DNA of 64,000 bases from an uncultured Erythrobacter sp. (GTDB lineage Bacteria; Pseudomonadota; Alphaproteobacteria; Sphingomonadales; Sphingomonadaceae): positions 1,054,001 through 1,118,000 of the forward strand of contig CANKYI010000001.1 of the NCBI GenBank assembly GCA_947488085.1. The letters are read 5' to 3'. The position numbers and the translations under genes were made by a program. Below are positions 28,355 to 34,866 of this stretch, piece after piece; the stretch's first letter is position 1, and every line of letters begins with the position of its first letter. The notes under the pieces are model-generated. The model searched no databases, had not been told where the DNA came from, and saw only the letters and a list, made by a program, of their open reading frames with translations.

Positions 28355-29368
28355 ATGATAAGACGGCTTATATCGATACCTGTAATACTGGGCATTATTG
28401 CCAGCCCGGTGAATGCGAGTGGCCTCAAAACACCGCCCGTCATTCCAGAGAAGATCTGCGAGTTTGGTGCTCTAACGCCAATCGCCGATCTCGAATTCGA
28501 ACCGCCCGTGCAGGATTACGCGCCGTCACCCGCAATGTGGAGGATCGCGGATGATGATACGACGATCTACCTGTTCGGCACGTACCACATCCTGCCAGAG
28601 GGGTTTGCATGGCGGACCGAGCTGTTTGATCAAGTCGTCGAGAATGTCGATGAATTGGTAATCGAATCCCACGACGATCCTGACAACACAGCGACAGCGA
28701 GCGACATGGATCAGGCGCGGATCATGCAGCTTTTCACCGAATATCGCCCGAAAGTTCCACTCTCGCAACGGTTGTCCAAGCATAACCGCGCCAAATTCCT
28801 TGGCCTGCTCGATGCATTTGGCCTGCCGCGCGAACGAGTTGAGTTGGCACCCCCGTTGATGGCCATGTTTGGGATCGCTATGGCGATGACCCGTGCTCAA
28901 GGCTCAGAGCGTACATTCGGCGTTGAGACCGTGCTCAAAGCCGAGTTTGACGAGACCAATCGTTCTATCTCCGGGATTGAGGATGCAGTTCAAGTGTTTG
29001 AAAACTTGCTGAACATCAACACAGACCGAATGATCAGCGACATCGATAAGAGCTTCGATGAATGGGATGGCTGTGACGGGAGCGAGCTGGAAGACTTAGT
29101 TGATCGAGATTGGTCCTCGGAACATTCATGGGCGAAAGGTGATCTTGATGATGACCTTACCGAAGAGATGACCGAAGACCCGTTTGGACGCGCATTTTAT
29201 GATGTGCTGATCGTGGACCGGAACACGGCATGGAGGGATTGGGTCGAGTCGCGACTCGAGCGTCCCGGCAGCATTTTATTGGCTGTTGGAGCCGCGCATA
29301 TGGACGGCGATCACTCGCTTGTCCTGCTGTTGGAGCAGAGCGGCATTTCGATCGAGAGAATCCAGTAA
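28355..29368 (+). CDS. TraB/GumN family protein (first of three)
   Basis: A 337-residue exported protein of the TraB/GumN (PF01963) group, distantly related to Tiki metalloproteases. A signal peptide (MIRRLISIPVILG..., cleavage near VNAS) is followed by the first metal-type motif FGTYH near residues 72-76, an acidic LVIES, and the second motif GAAH near residue 312. The start at 28355 has GAGGG at 28341; a GTG at 28328 is less likely. It is closest to the copy at 33035 (both have DDTTIYLFGT-type and D-x-x-x-x-W-x-x-W segments). It opens the TraB/membrane-array locus. Periplasmic role unknown. Confidence 0.85.
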   Translation: MIRRLISIPVILGIIASPVNASGLKTPPVIPEKICEFGALTPIADLEFEPPVQDYAPSPAMWRIADDDTTIYLFGTYHILPEGFAWRTELFDQVVENVDELVIESHDDPDNTATASDMDQARIMQLFTEYRPKVPLSQRLSKHNRAKFLGLLDAFGLPRERVELAPPLMAMFGIAMAMTRAQGSERTFGVETVLKAEFDETNRSISGIEDAVQVFENLLNINTDRMISDIDKSFDEWDGCDGSELEDLVDRDWSSEHSWAKGDLDDDLTEEMTEDPFGRAFYDVLIVDRNTAWRDWVESRLERPGSILLAVGAAHMDGDHSLVLLLEQSGISIERIQ

Positions 29369-29457
29369 CCCTCTAAAAATAATTGGAAATATGAATCAAT
29401 CCTGAGCAATAACTCGGGTCGATTTGTCGTGCCTTCATGACCAAATGTCAGGTCATG

Positions 29458-29486
29458 TTGACATTGTCAGCAACTCGCTACATAAA
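29458..29486 (+). promoter_or_regulatory. Probable sigma70-type promoter of urcA
   Basis: TTGACA at 29458-29463, a 17-base spacer, then CATAAA at 29481-29486. The -35 overlaps an ATGTCA...TGACAT inverted repeat (29445-29450 with 29459-29464) that could be an operator. About 70 bases separate the -10 from the urcA start. Confidence 0.55.
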
Positions 29487-29557
29487 GTAAGGGCAACCTG
29501 ACATAACGGAAGGTTGACGAGACAAAACAACCACTCTTCCTCCCCAGGAGATTACAC

Positions 29558-29917
29558 ATGCGTAAGACCATCATCACCATCGTCGCTGCTGCAACTGCCA
29601 TCGCAACTCCTGCAATCGCTCACGCATCACCGATCAACGAAACTCAGTTTAATCAGACAATTGAGCACGATGACCTCGACCTCACCACACAACGCGGCAT
29701 TGCACGGCTTGATGAGCGTGTGCGCACCGAAATTCGCCGCGCCTGTGCCAATGGCGGCCGTGACAGCGCCTCAGTCCGGCTAGAGCGGGAATGCCGCGCA
29801 ACCGCCTTCGCATCAGCTGAACGCGAAATTCGCTTCGCCATTGCCGAAGCCAACGCAGACCGCGTGCGCTTCGCGAAGAACTCTGCGGCGTCAGACACCG
29901 ACACTCCCGGTGCATGA
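29558..29917 (+). CDS. UrcA family protein
   Basis: A 119-residue exported protein with a signal peptide (MRKTIITIVAAATAIATPAIAHAS) and the UrcA family core: a D-L-D-L-T-T-x-x-G segment, L-D-E-R-V near residue 52 and a conserved Cys pair (RRACANGG, ERECRATAF). UrcA proteins are small periplasmic proteins frequent in sphingomonads and caulobacters; their function is not established. A good AGGAG ribosome site lies at 29546-29550. A strong stem-loop follows the gene. Confidence 0.85.
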   Translation: MRKTIITIVAAATAIATPAIAHASPINETQFNQTIEHDDLDLTTQRGIARLDERVRTEIRRACANGGRDSASVRLERECRATAFASAEREIRFAIAEANADRVRFAKNSAASDTDTPGA

Positions 29918-29925
29918 TGCTGATC

Positions 29926-29977
29926 GCCGCTCTCGCCTCTTGGCCAAACCCCGAAGGCCGGAATCAGCGAGAGCGGC
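29926..29977 (+). other. Large GC-rich stem-loop between urcA and the membrane-protein array
   Basis: A perfect 11-bp stem (29926-29936 with 29967-29977) encloses a second GGCC/GGCC hairpin (29942-29945 with 29956-29959). It is not followed by a T-run, so it is not a typical terminator. It may protect the urcA transcript end, pause polymerase or reduce read-through into the genes that begin at 30020. Confidence 0.6.
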
Positions 29978-30019
29978 ACCCCCTTCACACCCAATCAAGT
30001 CGTCGGAGCACATTTTGAG

Positions 30020-30409
30020 ATGAACAAAGCCAACATCTTTATGGGCGCAGGTTGGGTCGGGCTTGCCGGAATTGGCGGTTTCCTGATCAGCGCGCTCGAT
30101 GTTATTCCGGCCTGGGTTGCAATCGCCGGCGGACTGATTGCAGTGGCCGCTTGCTGGACCATGCTGTTCACCCGCAATGCTGATGAGTACACCCGCGGAT
30201 TGTGGACTTCAGGCGCAAGTACAGCCTTTGCGATCATGCTCATCCTGTTTCTCACCGTGCCCTTTTTCGAAGGGGTCTATGATGGTTTCAACGATGCCCA
30301 CAACGGCACCGACGCGGCCGAACGCGACATTCCCGCCATCCTAACCATCGCGAGCGCAATCGCCGGATTTTACATCGGATTGTTCTGGAAGCGACTTTTT
30401 GGAACCTGA
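30020..30409 (+). CDS. Membrane-array protein 1 (unknown family)
   Basis: A 129-residue protein with four hydrophobic segments (about 5-25, 30-50, 66-84, 104-124). After the second segment comes R-N-A-D-E-Y-T-R-G-L-W (52-62), a motif repeated in changed form in the next four membrane proteins of the locus. I do not recognise the family. Two bases separate it from the following gene, so it begins a tight operon. Confidence 0.72.
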   Translation: MNKANIFMGAGWVGLAGIGGFLISALDVIPAWVAIAGGLIAVAACWTMLFTRNADEYTRGLWTSGASTAFAIMLILFLTVPFFEGVYDGFNDAHNGTDAAERDIPAILTIASAIAGFYIGLFWKRLFGT

Positions 30410-30411
30410 TC

Positions 30412-30933
30412 ATGACTGACAGCATTCAAATCTCCCCTCGCCAGAAAAAGGTCGACCGCTATTTGCGCGCAGCGAATATCGGGACTGTGGCAGCGATTGC
30501 GGCCCCGTTTATTTACTTCGCAATCGATCATGTGTTCACAGGCTGGGAAGAGGATGACGCACTCCTCATTCCCGCGCTCACTCTGCTTGCGATCTTGGTG
30601 TTCCTTGTATTCGAAGCTTATGCGGTTCTTGCCGTGTTTGCCCGTCGTAAGACTGACGAATTCACTCTGGCCATGTGGCACAGCGGCACTTCCTATGCAT
30701 TTTTTGCCGCTATCATATGGTTCATCATCGGACCCTGGGCCGAGCTGGTTTTCGATTTGTGGTTCGCACTGGATCCGGATCAACTGGCGCAGGCAAGCAC
30801 CACGGACGATTCTGACCAGCTTACCGACACCTCTCTAATGGAGGCGACCATTATCGAACGGTACGCAACTCCGGTCATCTTCGGCGCGTTTTTCCTCGGC
30901 TTCCAGATCAAGCGATTCAGAGGGGATATCTGA
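30412..30933 (+). CDS. Membrane-array protein 2 (unknown family)
   Basis: A 173-residue protein with four hydrophobic segments. R-K-T-D-E-F-T-L-A-M-W at 79-89, followed by an SGTSYAF segment, corresponds to the motif of protein 1 (DEYTRGLW, SGASTAF), so the two are paralogues. An acidic loop of about 30 residues (about 120-150) lies before the last segment. It ends with a basic tail. Function unknown. Confidence 0.72.
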   Translation: MTDSIQISPRQKKVDRYLRAANIGTVAAIAAPFIYFAIDHVFTGWEEDDALLIPALTLLAILVFLVFEAYAVLAVFARRKTDEFTLAMWHSGTSYAFFAAIIWFIIGPWAELVFDLWFALDPDQLAQASTTDDSDQLTDTSLMEATIIERYATPVIFGAFFLGFQIKRFRGDI

Positions 30934-30973
30934 TGTCCTATGATCTCAAATCTATCACAGAGGAGCAACGGGC

Positions 30974-31474
30974 ATGAACGCGATCGACAAGCCCACTCCC
31001 AAGAGCCCCAAAGATCCGCTCCGCTACCGGGCCTATTTCTGGCTTATGGACGCAGCCTTTGTTGCCTCGGTTATCGTTTGGCTAGCCTTTATCCTTCTTC
31101 AAACAACGGGCATCAGCGCATTCGGATTGCCACCGCTGCTTCAAACGTTGCTTGCCCTAATCCTGTGGCCGCTCGTTGCCTTTGCACCATTCTTTCTGCT
31201 GATCGCCCGCTTTATGCGCGATGAGTACGCGGAAGGGATCTGGCGGCGCAGCGTGGTTGTCCTCGCTTATGCAGCGGCGATCCTACCTATGGCTTATTTT
31301 CTAACTGCCTGGGGCACCTTCTTTGCCGCGGGCCAACCCGAAGAGCCTCCTGCAATATTTGCTTGGTCCATTCAGGAAGTCAGCTGGGGTTTTGCGATTT
31401 GGGCAGCATTCTCAGTCTACATGCAGATCTTTGTCTTCATCTTTCAATTCCTCCGCTGGAGGGATTCCAGATGA
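30974..31474 (+). CDS. Membrane-array protein 3 (unknown family)
   Basis: A 166-residue protein with four hydrophobic segments and an R-D-E-Y-A-E-G-I-W motif at 82-90, equivalent to the DEYTRGLW motif of protein 1. GAGGAG precedes the ATG. Its stop overlaps the start of the small Cro-like regulator (ATGA at 31471), so protein and regulator are translationally coupled. Confidence 0.72.
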   Translation: MNAIDKPTPKSPKDPLRYRAYFWLMDAAFVASVIVWLAFILLQTTGISAFGLPPLLQTLLALILWPLVAFAPFFLLIARFMRDEYAEGIWRRSVVVLAYAAAILPMAYFLTAWGTFFAAGQPEEPPAIFAWSIQEVSWGFAIWAAFSVYMQIFVFIFQFLRWRDSR

Positions 31475-31668
31475 AGAACCGCCTCAAAGTCCTGCGCGCT
31501 GAACGCGATTGGTCACAGGCCGAATTAGCGATGCAACTCGATGTGTCGCGTCAGGCCGTCAATGCCATTGAAACGGGAAAGCACGACCCCTCCCTCCCCC
31601 TCGCCTTTCGCATTTCGCGTCTGTTCGACATGCAGATTGAGGAGATTTTCCATGATGAAAGCAATTAG
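31471..31668 (+). CDS. Small Cro/XRE-type transcriptional regulator
   Basis: A 65-residue protein that is almost only a helix-turn-helix: LKVLRAERDWSQAELA, DVSRQAVNAIETGKHDPS and a short tail (IEEIFHDESN). This is the size of YozG/Cro-like regulators that commonly accompany small membrane proteins. ATGA overlap with the preceding gene, and possible overlap with the next, suggest fixed stoichiometry with the membrane proteins. It probably autoregulates the operon, an inference from context. A frame upstream of 31471 adds 36 residues that do not look like protein of this family. Confidence 0.85.
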   Translation: MKNRLKVLRAERDWSQAELAMQLDVSRQAVNAIETGKHDPSLPLAFRISRLFDMQIEEIFHDESN

Positions 31669-32317
31669 GGAACAAGCCATGGAACATGATGATAATCCAA
31701 CACTTCTGGCAAGAACTGCTTCGGTCCTTGTCCCGTCAACCTGCTTTGCTGTTGGCATTGGAATGCTGTTCGGCGGGCTTGCAGGCGCTTCGAGTGCGTT
31801 TGACCGTGAAACGCTAACATCCGGGCTCGCCCTTGGCAGTATGGCCGTGCCTGCTCTCGGTGCAGTAGTGGTTGTTTTGACCTTCCGAAAATGGCCGACA
31901 TTGCGTTCCGGAGATCCTGATACGCCAAGGACACGTCGGATTAGCATGGGAATGATTGCCCTCATGGCTATCGCATGTGTCACAGCCATCTTGTTTTCGA
32001 TTGGAGACGGCGAGGCGCGCACCTCAGAGCTTTTTTCGAATGGCCCACTGCCTACATCAGTCGCGGTAGCGGCCTGTGCGCTCTGGTTACTGGGTATCCC
32101 GGCCCTTGCCTACTTCTCACGTCGCAATGCCGATGAAGTTGATATGGAATATCAGAAGTTTGGCGAAACTATCGGCTTCCAGTTCTTTGGTGTCGTCGCG
32201 CCAGTTTGGTGGGTCGCATGGCGCGGAGGATTTGCCCCTGAGCCCGATGTGATGATCCTGTTTGTCGCAGTCCTCATCGTATCAGTAGTTGGCAATTATA
32301 TTCGGAGGGCAATGTGA
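31652..32317 (+). CDS. Membrane-array protein 4 (unknown family)
   Basis: A 221-residue protein with about six hydrophobic segments. The start at 31652 has AGGAG seven bases upstream and overlaps the regulator gene by 17 bases; ATG at 31679 with AGGGA is an alternative giving 212 residues. It shares with protein 5 the series SNGPLP, a N-A-D-E motif (159-162), F-G-V-V-A-P-V-W-W and P-D-V-M-I, and the D-E position matches proteins 1-3. Function unknown. Confidence 0.7.
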   Translation: MMKAIREQAMEHDDNPTLLARTASVLVPSTCFAVGIGMLFGGLAGASSAFDRETLTSGLALGSMAVPALGAVVVVLTFRKWPTLRSGDPDTPRTRRISMGMIALMAIACVTAILFSIGDGEARTSELFSNGPLPTSVAVAACALWLLGIPALAYFSRRNADEVDMEYQKFGETIGFQFFGVVAPVWWVAWRGGFAPEPDVMILFVAVLIVSVVGNYIRRAM

Positions 32318-32976
32318 GCAATTCCACGTTTGATGACACAAGCGAAGAGATCGAAACAGAACAATCAGACGTTGTGCGTGGGATCAAGATTGGTCTGGGC
32401 GCGACACTTTACCTCGCATCCCTTTGGACAATCATTGCTGCCCAGCATGGTGCCTTTGATGGTTTGAGCGGTGCCTTGCCTGCCGCCCTGGCGCTCGGTT
32501 CGGCGCTTATGGTAATTATTATCTCGATGCTGTGGCTAAATACGCTCAATCTCACCACGGGTAAGGATGAGCCGGTCGCCAAGAGCACAAAAAAGGCCAG
32601 ACGCGCGCTTATTTGGTCATGCGTCCTGGGCCTGGTTATTGTGGTGATCTTCTACACTTCGCTTGGCTCTGACCTGAGCGAGGTCGAGTTGATGAGCAAC
32701 GGCCCGATTCCCGCTTATTTAGCGATTTTGGTTAGCGTTATTTACGCAGTGGGCGGCGTCTATGTCACAGTGGATTGGAACGCCAATGTCGACGAGCATG
32801 AGCGCGCCGCCTTGTACACCGGGCTGTACGGTTCGTTCATGACCTATGGTATCGTGACCCCGATCTGGTGGTTGGGACAGCGTGCCGCGCTGCTTCCTGA
32901 TCAAGACCCAATGATCATGTATTCCCTTATCCTGACTACATTTTGCGCACTCTGGACCTATCGTCGCGGCGGCTAA
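32314..32976 (+). CDS. Membrane-array protein 5 (unknown family)
   Basis: A 220-residue protein with about six hydrophobic segments after an acidic N-terminal tail. The start GTG overlaps the preceding stop (GTGA). Clear paralogue of protein 4: SNGPIP, N-A-N-V-D-E (156-161), Y-G-I-V-T-P-I-W-W and D-P-M-I-M. The next gene, a TraB/GumN protein, starts 58 bases later after its own good ribosome site. Confidence 0.7.
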   Translation: MSNSTFDDTSEEIETEQSDVVRGIKIGLGATLYLASLWTIIAAQHGAFDGLSGALPAALALGSALMVIIISMLWLNTLNLTTGKDEPVAKSTKKARRALIWSCVLGLVIVVIFYTSLGSDLSEVELMSNGPIPAYLAILVSVIYAVGGVYVTVDWNANVDEHERAALYTGLYGSFMTYGIVTPIWWLGQRAALLPDQDPMIMYSLILTTFCALWTYRRGG

Positions 32977-33034
32977 TCGCTTGCTCTTTGAACCCAATTT
33001 CAAATATCCACCCTATCCAACCGGAGAATAACCA

Positions 33035-33967
33035 ATGAAAAGCCCCCTCAACACCCTGACAACCGGCCTTGCAGCCACAATTGCACTGGTCGCTGCGACA
33101 CCCGCTCTGGCCGATGCGCACACAGAGGCGACACCGACCGCTGAGACAGAATTACCTAGCGGTCCCGAAGGCCCCGCGCTTTGGAAAGTGTCCGATGAAG
33201 ACACCACTATCTATCTGTTCGGAACGGTCCACGCTCTATCGCCAGACGTGATGTGGTACGATGCTGAGATTGATGCTGCATTGGCGTCTTCGGACACGGT
33301 CGTCACGGAAATCCGCATGGACCCTGCAAGTCAGGCCGAACTCCAGCAAATCGGCATGCAAAAGAGTATGTTCACAGACGGCACTACGTTGCGCTCGCTG
33401 CTTGATGAAGAGCAGACCGCTGCATATGAGAGCGCGCTGACCCAATTGGGCATTCCTGCGGCGGCTTTTGATCCGCTTGAGCCATGGATGGTGGGCCTGA
33501 CATTGAGCGTCCTACCCCTTCTGCAGCAAGGCTATGATTTGGAGGCTGGCGTCGACAAAGTGATCCTGTCGAAAGCGGGTGAAGCGCAGCAGGAGGCGCT
33601 GGAGACGGCAGAATTCCAGCTCAGTATCTTCGACACGCTTTCTCAGGATGATCAACTGGAATTCCTGATGGCCGCGGTCGAAGGAATGGACGAGGTTGGA
33701 GCAACGCTCGATTCCATGGTTGCAGAATGGCTCGAAGGGGACGCCGATGCGCTGGCAGCGATCATGAATGAGAATATGGAAGACGGCGACCTTGCGAAAG
33801 CCCTGCTATTTGATCGCAACGCCAATTGGGCCGAATGGATTGATGCGCGTCTCGACAGCACACCCGGCACCGTCTTCGTCGCGGTTGGCGCAGGGCATCT
33901 TGCAGGCGATTTGAGCGTGCAAGACTATCTCGCACAGCGCGATATCGAGGTCACTCGAGTCCAGTGA
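33035..33967 (+). CDS. TraB/GumN family protein (second of three)
   Basis: A 310-residue exported protein: signal peptide ending at PALADA, then LWKVSDEDTTIYLFGTVH with the first G-x-x-H motif near residues 62-66, an acidic VVTEIRMD, and GAGH near residue 285. The near-identical layout to the copy at 28355 makes them paralogues. CGGAG precedes the ATG. Its stop overlaps the start of the third copy (GTGA). Tiki/TraB proteins coordinate a metal through such motifs; activity here is untested. Confidence 0.88.
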   Translation: MKSPLNTLTTGLAATIALVAATPALADAHTEATPTAETELPSGPEGPALWKVSDEDTTIYLFGTVHALSPDVMWYDAEIDAALASSDTVVTEIRMDPASQAELQQIGMQKSMFTDGTTLRSLLDEEQTAAYESALTQLGIPAAAFDPLEPWMVGLTLSVLPLLQQGYDLEAGVDKVILSKAGEAQQEALETAEFQLSIFDTLSQDDQLEFLMAAVEGMDEVGATLDSMVAEWLEGDADALAAIMNENMEDGDLAKALLFDRNANWAEWIDARLDSTPGTVFVAVGAGHLAGDLSVQDYLAQRDIEVTRVQ

Positions 33968-34866
33968 TCCGCACCATACCTTTGCTGTTTGCCGCCATAG
34001 CCTCGTTGGCTGTGGCGGCTTGCGGTTCTGGAGCGACGTCTGAGGTAGTTGCGATCTCTGGTGAAAAACCCAATCCAATCTTCTATGAAATCTCAAACTC
34101 TTTGGGGCGCACCGAAGGGTGGATGCTTGGCACCATCCACGCACTGCCTGATGACACAGAGTGGCAAACACCGGCGATCCGGAAAGCTATCGAAGACGCA
34201 GATCGTGCGGTCGTCGAAGTGGTCGATCTTACCAATAGTCAGGGTCTTGCAGAAACTTTTGTAAGGCTTGGCACTTCCCCAGAGCAGGGTTCTTTGAGCC
34301 TGCGCGTGGCTAGAGAATATCGCGAGCCGCTTGATGAAATGGTAGAACAGTCGGAGTTCAGTCAGGCCCAGTTCTACGACACTGAAACCTGGGCTGCGGC
34401 GATCATGCTTGCCCGTCTTGGTGCGGTTGGAAAACCGCGCAACGGCGTAGATCGTTATGTCATTTCCCAATTTCGAGACAGACAAGTCTACGGATTTGAA
34501 CTTGCCCATGAGCAATTGGGTATCTTTGATCGGTTGGCTGAGCAGGATCAGCGAGAATTGTTGGAAGGCACCGTGCAGGAGTGGCAGGCGTCACGGGACA
34601 ATCCTGGCCAACTTACCAAGGCGTGGTTCGCCGGGGATGAAGCCGCTCTGTTAGAAGTCACAGAAACGGGCATCATGGCCGACCCGGAGATCCGCGATGC
34701 TCTGCTTGTCCAGCGAAACAAGGATTGGCTACCGATCATTTTGAAGCACCTGGATGACCCAGGACGTCCATTGATTGCAGTCGGCACGGCTCATCTTGTT
34801 GGTCCGGATGGGCTAAAGACCATGCTCGAAGGAGAAGGCTACACGGTAACTCGCGTCACTAATTAG
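33964..34866 (+). CDS. TraB/GumN family lipoprotein (third of three)
   Basis: A 300-residue protein with a lipoprotein signal (SLAVAAC, Cys about residue 19), so it is probably anchored in a membrane facing the periplasm. It has GTIH near residues 55-58 and GTAH near 273-276, matching the other two copies, but is otherwise more divergent. The GTG start overlaps the previous stop, so copies two and three are one translational unit. A lipid-anchored and a soluble paralogue made together suggests a complex or substrate relay, which is inference. Confidence 0.86.

Follow-up and report, generated by a model that had tools for sequence, protein, structure and literature searches.

A candidate self-regulated operon joining an XRE regulator, small membrane proteins and TraB/GumN proteins in an uncultured Erythrobacter species

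The stretch of DNA considered here, termed the window, comprises 64,000 nucleotides from an uncultured Erythrobacter sp. (GenBank assembly GCA_947488085.1, contig CANKYI010000001.1, positions 1,054,001 to 1,118,000 of the forward strand). Its open reading frames (ORFs) include a locus of ten genes, all on the + strand, in the order TraB1, UrcA, MP1, MP2, MP3, XRE, MP4, MP5, TraB2 and TraB3, in which MP denotes a membrane protein with several transmembrane (TM) helices. An earlier note on this DNA, made from the letters alone, had placed ten ORFs at these positions on one strand, and all were recovered. The locus contains the following features, in window coordinates.

28355..29368, + strand: TraB1, TraB/GumN family (PF01963, E = 5.6e-46, 158 bits); probably outside the XRE-regulated operon
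29446..29463, + strand: candidate operator O1, TGTCAGGTCATGTTGACA, overlapping the -35-like TTGACA at 29458-29463; 0 mismatches to the pattern, conserved in relatives
29481..29486, + strand: -10-like CATAAA, 17 nt past the -35, read by eye
29486..29503, + strand: candidate operator O2, AGTAAGGGCAACCTGACA, starting 40 bp after the start of O1; 0 mismatches to the pattern
29558..29917, + strand: UrcA family protein, the first gene 3' of the operator (TIGR04433, E = 9.8e-18)
30020..30409, + strand: MP1, 129 residues, about 4 TM helices
30412..30933, + strand: MP2, 173 residues, about 4 TM helices
30974..31474, + strand: MP3, 166 residues, about 4 TM helices
31471..31668, + strand: XRE regulator of the CylR2 type, 65 residues (HTH_3, E = 4e-14)
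31652..32317, + strand: MP4, 221 residues, 6 TM helices in the model
32314..32976, + strand: MP5, 220 residues, of the MP4 type
33035..33967, + strand: TraB2, TraB/GumN family, signal-peptide-like start (PF01963, E = 5.6e-75, 253 bits)
33964..34866, + strand: TraB3, TraB/GumN family, lipoprotein-like start (PF01963, E = 9.8e-51, 173.6 bits)

Neighboring genes overlap by 4 nt at MP3/XRE, MP4/MP5 and TraB2/TraB3 and by 17 nt at XRE/MP4, which suggests coupled translation. The operon probably runs from UrcA through MP1, MP2, MP3, XRE, MP4, MP5 and TraB2 to TraB3. Because the candidate operators and promoter sit between TraB1 and UrcA, TraB1 is probably a separate transcription unit, and a single operon containing all three TraB genes, as the earlier note might be taken to propose, is not supported; upstream of TraB1 there is no operator match at up to 2 mismatches. 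The note's 65-residue XRE-type regulator overlapped into the operon is borne out by the HTH_3 match and the two flanking overlaps, and its UrcA-family gene by a score of 64.1 bits against the TIGR04433 cut-off of 25.

Upstream of the TraB-linked units lies an 18-bp palindrome, TGTCAGGTNNACCTGACA, repeated around a promoter-like TTGACA-17-CATATA, with copies in 40-bp steps in 22 pairs and in 21-bp steps in nine. At up to one mismatch, the window's own genome has four operator places (O1, O2 and two single ones), compared with three for the reversed control. Among 119 genomes from the window's family, 32 have the double operator (taken as one 58-bp pattern with no more than a single mismatch), always at one place, 87-2538 bp upstream of XRE on the same strand, and the reversed control occurs in none. 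All 32 are among the 37 genomes that have a TraB-linked XRE of this group, and none is among the other 82. When 12 of 16 positions are required and a match inside the glyQ coding region is masked, 77 of 82 distinct linked loci have one or more upstream sites (2.1 on average), by a consensus read from part of the scored loci; the corresponding count in unmasked shuffles is 0.06, and the own-genome and 119-genome scans serve as the other controls. A previous count of 80 of 83 linked rows was discarded, as it was inflated by the glyQ match and by counting one locus (L071) twice.

The same contrast is visible among 61 mapped loci, namely 60 stretches read from the 119 genomes plus the window. These were chosen from a list of TraB genes, membrane-protein matches first, and proportions among them are not population frequencies. 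XRE is present in 32 (the window included) and absent from 29; with glyQ ORFs masked, a script finds operators in 29 of the 32 and two of the 29, and by inspection the numbers are 30 of 32 and 0 of 29. Unmasked matches in 11 of the 29 XRE-less loci were all traced to the glyQ-like match, as were, by eye, the operators in L026 and L072; L071 had been masked wrongly. Beyond these, 31 of 42 XRE loci that are not linked to TraB have a related palindrome, TGTCAAGTNNACTTGACA, no more than 800 bp upstream (0.65 in shuffles), by a consensus chosen after some of those loci had been seen. These loci comprise sphingomonad paralogues, Acidobacteriota, Balneolota, Chloroflexota and others, and self-control by this type of regulator thus looks wider than the link to TraB.

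At the level of sequence, then, a conserved candidate operator array is established at a single place in the genome, the promoter of the operon that contains XRE. XRE is predicted to bind these palindromes. Local self-regulation of the operon is a well-supported prediction, in keeping with the local regulator of the earlier note.

The association of the regulator with TraB/GumN was examined in the same 119 genomes with an XRE profile (A2) built from 31 TraB-linked loci, from which the XRE of locus L040 was left out. XREs of the window's general type occur at E = 1e-12 or better in 71 genomes. Taking one best match per genome above a line of 137 bits, which was drawn after inspection, all 37 XREs have a TraB/GumN domain 179-1517 bp downstream on the same strand (median 621), and the next five matches below that line are not TraB-linked. 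At 109 bits, the XRE of L040 (genome G055) adjoins a TraB gene and has no operator site. The slot most often reads glyQS (reverse)-[UrcA]-[MPs]-XRE-MP-TraB-TraB-rplY-pth. The earlier note's association of XRE, membrane proteins and TraB/GumN is therefore conserved, in one direction. That note had held that regular separation of TraB/GumN genes and the membrane array in relatives would make the association accidental. TraB/GumN is indeed often found without the array (29 of the 61 mapped loci, with a TraB/GumN gene in 118 of the 119 genomes), and so does not need it; the window's XRE group was never seen without TraB/GumN in those genomes.

It could be that TraB/GumN and the XRE module are functionally unrelated neighbors that occupy one chromosomal slot through common ancestry, as the usual position of most linked loci between glyQS and rplY-pth and the placement of 78 of 86 TraB-linked XREs in one tree group might lead one to expect. 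Several observations speak otherwise. A scan of named genomes for XRE, in which the best 80 loci among the matches listed were read for up to 5 kb on each side, includes 52 loci with TraB/GumN, a count that short contigs lower; 12 of these have neither glyQ nor rplY, a number that short contigs may inflate. The 12 are five Sphingomonas loci (L138, L139, L144, L156, L162) and seven from Caulobacteraceae (L126, L132, L140, L148, L149, L164, L171). In genome G091, an XRE-MP-TraB unit with two operator-like sites lies off the slot (L027; L190). Linkage also recurs in another family: in a class-wide sample, XRE was detected at E = 1e-30 in 11 of 289 genomes, and among the seven outside the window's family, TraB/GumN adjoins XRE in two from one genus (L183, L184) and not in five. 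On a tree of 132 XREs the TraB label changes nine times, at least five by starred branches, compared with 38 in shuffles, although this 66-column tree is poorly resolved and does not distinguish gains of the link from losses. Finally, the region has three terminator-like sites, compared with 7.2 in shuffles. We regard accidental neighborhood as already disfavored and assign it a low probability.

The five membrane proteins are related to one another. Searches of MP1-MP5 against Pfam and NCBIfam gave no family above cut-off, and ten relatives likewise matched none in Pfam. Each of the five carries an invariant D-E pair as well as a C-terminal R, and the profile for the MP1/MP2 type aligns with that for the MP4/MP5 type (hhalign 94.7%, E = 6e-8), in agreement with the five related membrane proteins of the earlier note. 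From its basic residues, the loop with the D-E pair is placed in the cytoplasm, where it could touch XRE. By a rough count of TM segments, 72 of the 80 named loci have a membrane protein next to XRE, and three of the other eight (L165-L167) start at XRE. XRE paralogues within the window's family also adjoin a membrane protein. In other phyla the partner is usually directly upstream of XRE, and 23 such partners are homologous to those of the window (hhalign 97.7%, E = 1.3e-12 for the MP4 type; 96.8%, E = 2.7e-10 for the MP1 type).

The number of recognized membrane proteins varies from row to row among 83 TraB-linked rows: one in 50, two in 15, three in eight, four in four, five in three (the window included) and none in three. 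These counts come from profiles, themselves built from ORFs with trimmed starts, and are lower bounds. At L101:4801-4986, a shortened ORF with the typical start and typical C-terminus of a membrane protein lacks the middle, and is probably a deletion remnant, as if arrays shed members. In 13 of the 83 rows (L023, L029, L041, L057, L064, L066, L068, L075, L102, L108, L112, L117 and L134), a short ORF of 32-61 residues with one hydrophobic stretch lies between the operator and XRE, stopping 3-48 bp 5' of the XRE start; those of L023, L102, L112 and L117 share the motif G[YF]AxGxIxAKxxxALGF. There is no such ORF in the window, where UrcA is the first gene. Elsewhere in the window's genome, C1:2938333-2938671 (L098) encodes a DUF2975 membrane protein (PF11188), with no close relative of the window XRE in its 1.5-kb flanks on the + strand. 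The DUF2975 family is often paired with XRE regulators.

Weak matches to transporter models raise the question of whether the membrane proteins handle a small molecule, as transporters or in an immunity-type role, with XRE sensing it directly in the cytoplasm. The matches (antiporter subunit G, 7.9e-5, for MP1; MgtE, 3.2e-4, for one relative) fall below cut-off and were set aside as generic helix similarity. XRE is a bare 65-residue helix-turn-helix (HTH) protein without a ligand domain. The MP4 model is fairly confident (predicted local distance difference test, pLDDT, 83.8; predicted template modeling score, pTM, 0.71), and no fold could be assigned to it, because the best Foldseek match has E = 0.33 and the best VIA-align matches (Z up to 7.0) are to unrelated helical proteins. 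A transporter or immunity role is accordingly very improbable in our estimation. The choice of a sensor over a channel would in turn depend solely on the homology of the regulator to CylR2.

The components of the locus diverge at different rates. Among the 47 loci that have the full gene set, the median of pairwise identities is 84% for XRE, 21% for the adjoining membrane protein, 45% for the first TraB and 74% for L25; for the second TraB it is 37% (42 loci). A near-invariant regulator beside a hypervariable membrane partner suggests receptor diversification. These values also bear on a different view, in which the operon serves envelope quality control: the membrane proteins would sense damage to the envelope or membrane, TraB/GumN and UrcA would be general periplasmic helpers, and regulation would be the same with no signaling molecule. 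The periplasmic or lipoprotein starts of TraB1-3, the inclusion of UrcA, the unrelated fold of the membrane proteins and the broad presence of XRE and membrane-protein pairs in free-living bacteria all fit such a role. Such rapid divergence of the membrane proteins would fit recognition of a changing partner better than sensing of a general membrane state, although it is not decisive. We consider quality control unlikely on balance, yet worth keeping in sight.

All three TraB proteins belong to the TraB/GumN family, with 158, 253 and 173.6 bits for TraB1-3 against the PF01963 cut-off of 26.8, and each has both GxxH motifs, as the earlier note had read them. G63, H66, E92, E190, R261, G285 and H288 (TraB2 numbering) are invariant in 44 TraB/GumN proteins, the window's three included. 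By eye, TraB1 and TraB2 have signal-peptide-like starts and TraB3 a lipobox-like one (LAVAAC), which matches the single lipoprotein of the earlier reading. No solved structure was matched by sequence to TraB/GumN. The TraB2 model (pLDDT 89.9) has no Foldseek match with E below 0.001; its best structural match is a subunit of Tetrahymena mitochondrial complex IV, 8bqs_DQ (Z 11.1, root-mean-square deviation (rmsd) 4.5, 212 residues aligned), and complex IV matches at Z of about 11 comprise 8bqs_DQ, 7w5z_E and 8b6h_DQ. ChaN (2g5g; Z 6.1, rmsd 4.6, 152 aligned) and EreC (6xcq; Z 4.7, rmsd 8.7, 165 aligned) follow. A fourth, divergent TraB/GumN gene (C1:2285047-2285832, L097; 54.5 bits) lies far from the locus in the same genome. 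We know of no established substrates for TraB/GumN enzymes in Gram-negative bacteria.

By phmmer the regulator is a homologue of CylR2 (E = 1.1e-11 over residues 3-61, 59 aligned; profile E = 1e-18), which, along with 9k3w of the PbsX family (E = 1.7e-24), is its nearest solved relative. Two paralogous XRE and membrane-protein modules without TraB are present in the window's genome, at C1:2424068-2424250 (L078) and C1:1780986-1781168 (L079). XRE repressors are common as antitoxins, and weak matches to antitoxin models might suggest a toxin-antitoxin-like module with XRE as antitoxin and one membrane protein as toxin. However, among the models touched, XRE reaches no curated antitoxin family above cut-off and is far below, for example with 37 versus 71.65 bits for the Y4mF family. 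Makarova et al. set XRE-membrane pairs aside, knowing no type II system with a membrane component (PMC2701414). A chromosomal slot, a conserved operator and up to five membrane proteins would also be unlike an addiction module. There is very little probability left for such a module.

The model that we prefer, and to which we give an even chance, is a self-regulated operon (promoter and operators at 29446-29503, genes at 29558-34866) that operates in the manner of CylR1/CylR2. A switch of this kind, with TraB/GumN as its output, is proposed because XRE is homologous to CylR2, because PrgY/TraB provides a precedent, and because XRE-membrane pairs are a known kind. XRE would bind O1, which overlaps the -35, and O2, which lies just past the -10, and in this way keep the operon repressed. 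At least one of the 4-6-TM proteins would hold or release XRE via the cytoplasmic D-E loop in response to a signal in the membrane or periplasm, and the signal would pass from membrane protein to repressor without a phosphorelay. Release of XRE would raise expression of the membrane proteins and the two periplasmic TraB/GumN proteins. Least certain of all, TraB/GumN may cleave or clear the inducer, probably a peptide, and so close a feedback loop, as PrgY/TraB may do with enterococcal pheromone. Repression, the membrane protein as sensor, the peptide signal and clearance by TraB are all suppositions of the model.

A number of observations weigh against this model. The promoter scan does not list the window's -35/-10 promoter, and promoter and terminator scans of the region return no more than shuffles. 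Five of the 37 linked genomes (G039, G082, G091, G095 and G107) lack the strict double operator. The ranking of the top 37 XREs is partly circular because the profile was built from 31 of them; the six genomes outside it (G103, G026, G009, G082, G016 and G006) are all TraB-linked. TraB/GumN is common without the module, and 28 of the 80 named loci, some on short contigs, have none in the sequence read around XRE. More distant XRE and membrane-protein pairs without TraB/GumN are common, and for this reason the switch does not require TraB. Neither a signal molecule nor lanthipeptide genes were identified, although no systematic search for them was made.

A more far-reaching version of the CylR-like model, which we think doubtful, would make the locus a Gram-negative peptide-signaling system, in which a single self-regulated operon unites a CylR1/CylR2-like membrane-to-repressor switch with a TIKI/TraB-type signal-degrading protease. 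The rapidly diverging membrane proteins would serve as receptors specific to each strain, tandem arrays, such as the one of five members in the window, would let more signals be recognized, and in a minority of relatives the 32-61-residue single-TM protein encoded directly after the operator could be the signal or modulate it.

The earlier note knew of no described system with this composition, and none was found in a search of the open literature. XRE and membrane-protein pairs and TraB/GumN are each known kinds, the combination was not found in print there, and what is new here is the conserved operator array around the promoter. Pairs of XRE and membrane-protein genes are spread over many phyla and were left unexplained in 2009 (PMC2701414). 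The present locus offers a testable example: each genome has a single operator array and a single operon, the promoter is short and would suit a reporter, and a TraB/GumN enzyme lies inside the unit.

Three known systems and a fold group invite comparison. Makarova et al. listed XRE and membrane-protein gene pairs (PA2784-like, YoaS-like and PA4076-like) and set them aside as unexplained. Like the window locus, these combine a conserved small XRE regulator with a membrane protein; a function was never assigned, and the accessible portion of that survey mentions no TraB/GumN (PMC2701414). The ChaN/erythromycin esterase fold group aligns with the TraB2 model at 9-12% identity, and such a predicted shared fold would indicate no function. 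PrgY/TraB is believed to break down pheromone extracellularly (PMC7117660). PrgY/TraB and the TIKI family share PF01963 and paired GxxH motifs with the TraB proteins of the window, and in both settings a known or predicted extracytoplasmic enzyme lies beside a regulatory circuit. However, PrgY/TraB belongs to a plasmid conjugation control with an imported peptide (PMC7117660), whereas here the operon is chromosomal and Gram-negative. Another parallel is with Enterococcus faecalis, where CylR2 acts as repressor of the cytolysin promoter and induction requires CylR1, which is suspected to be a membrane protein (PMC3709268, PMC11343131). The passage of the signal from membrane protein to repressor is described as not understood (PMC3709268). 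Both systems have a small HTH repressor, homologous between them, together with a membrane protein that is its partner in the CylR system and its candidate partner here; the local promoter control without a phosphorelay of CylR1/CylR2 (PMC3709268, PMC11343131) is predicted for the window operon. CylR1 is described there with three predicted TM helices, whereas the window locus and its relatives have one to five proteins of 4-6 TM helices. The CylR system, as portrayed in those accounts, accompanies a lanthipeptide operon without TraB, whereas the operon described here carries TraB/GumN and often an operator array.

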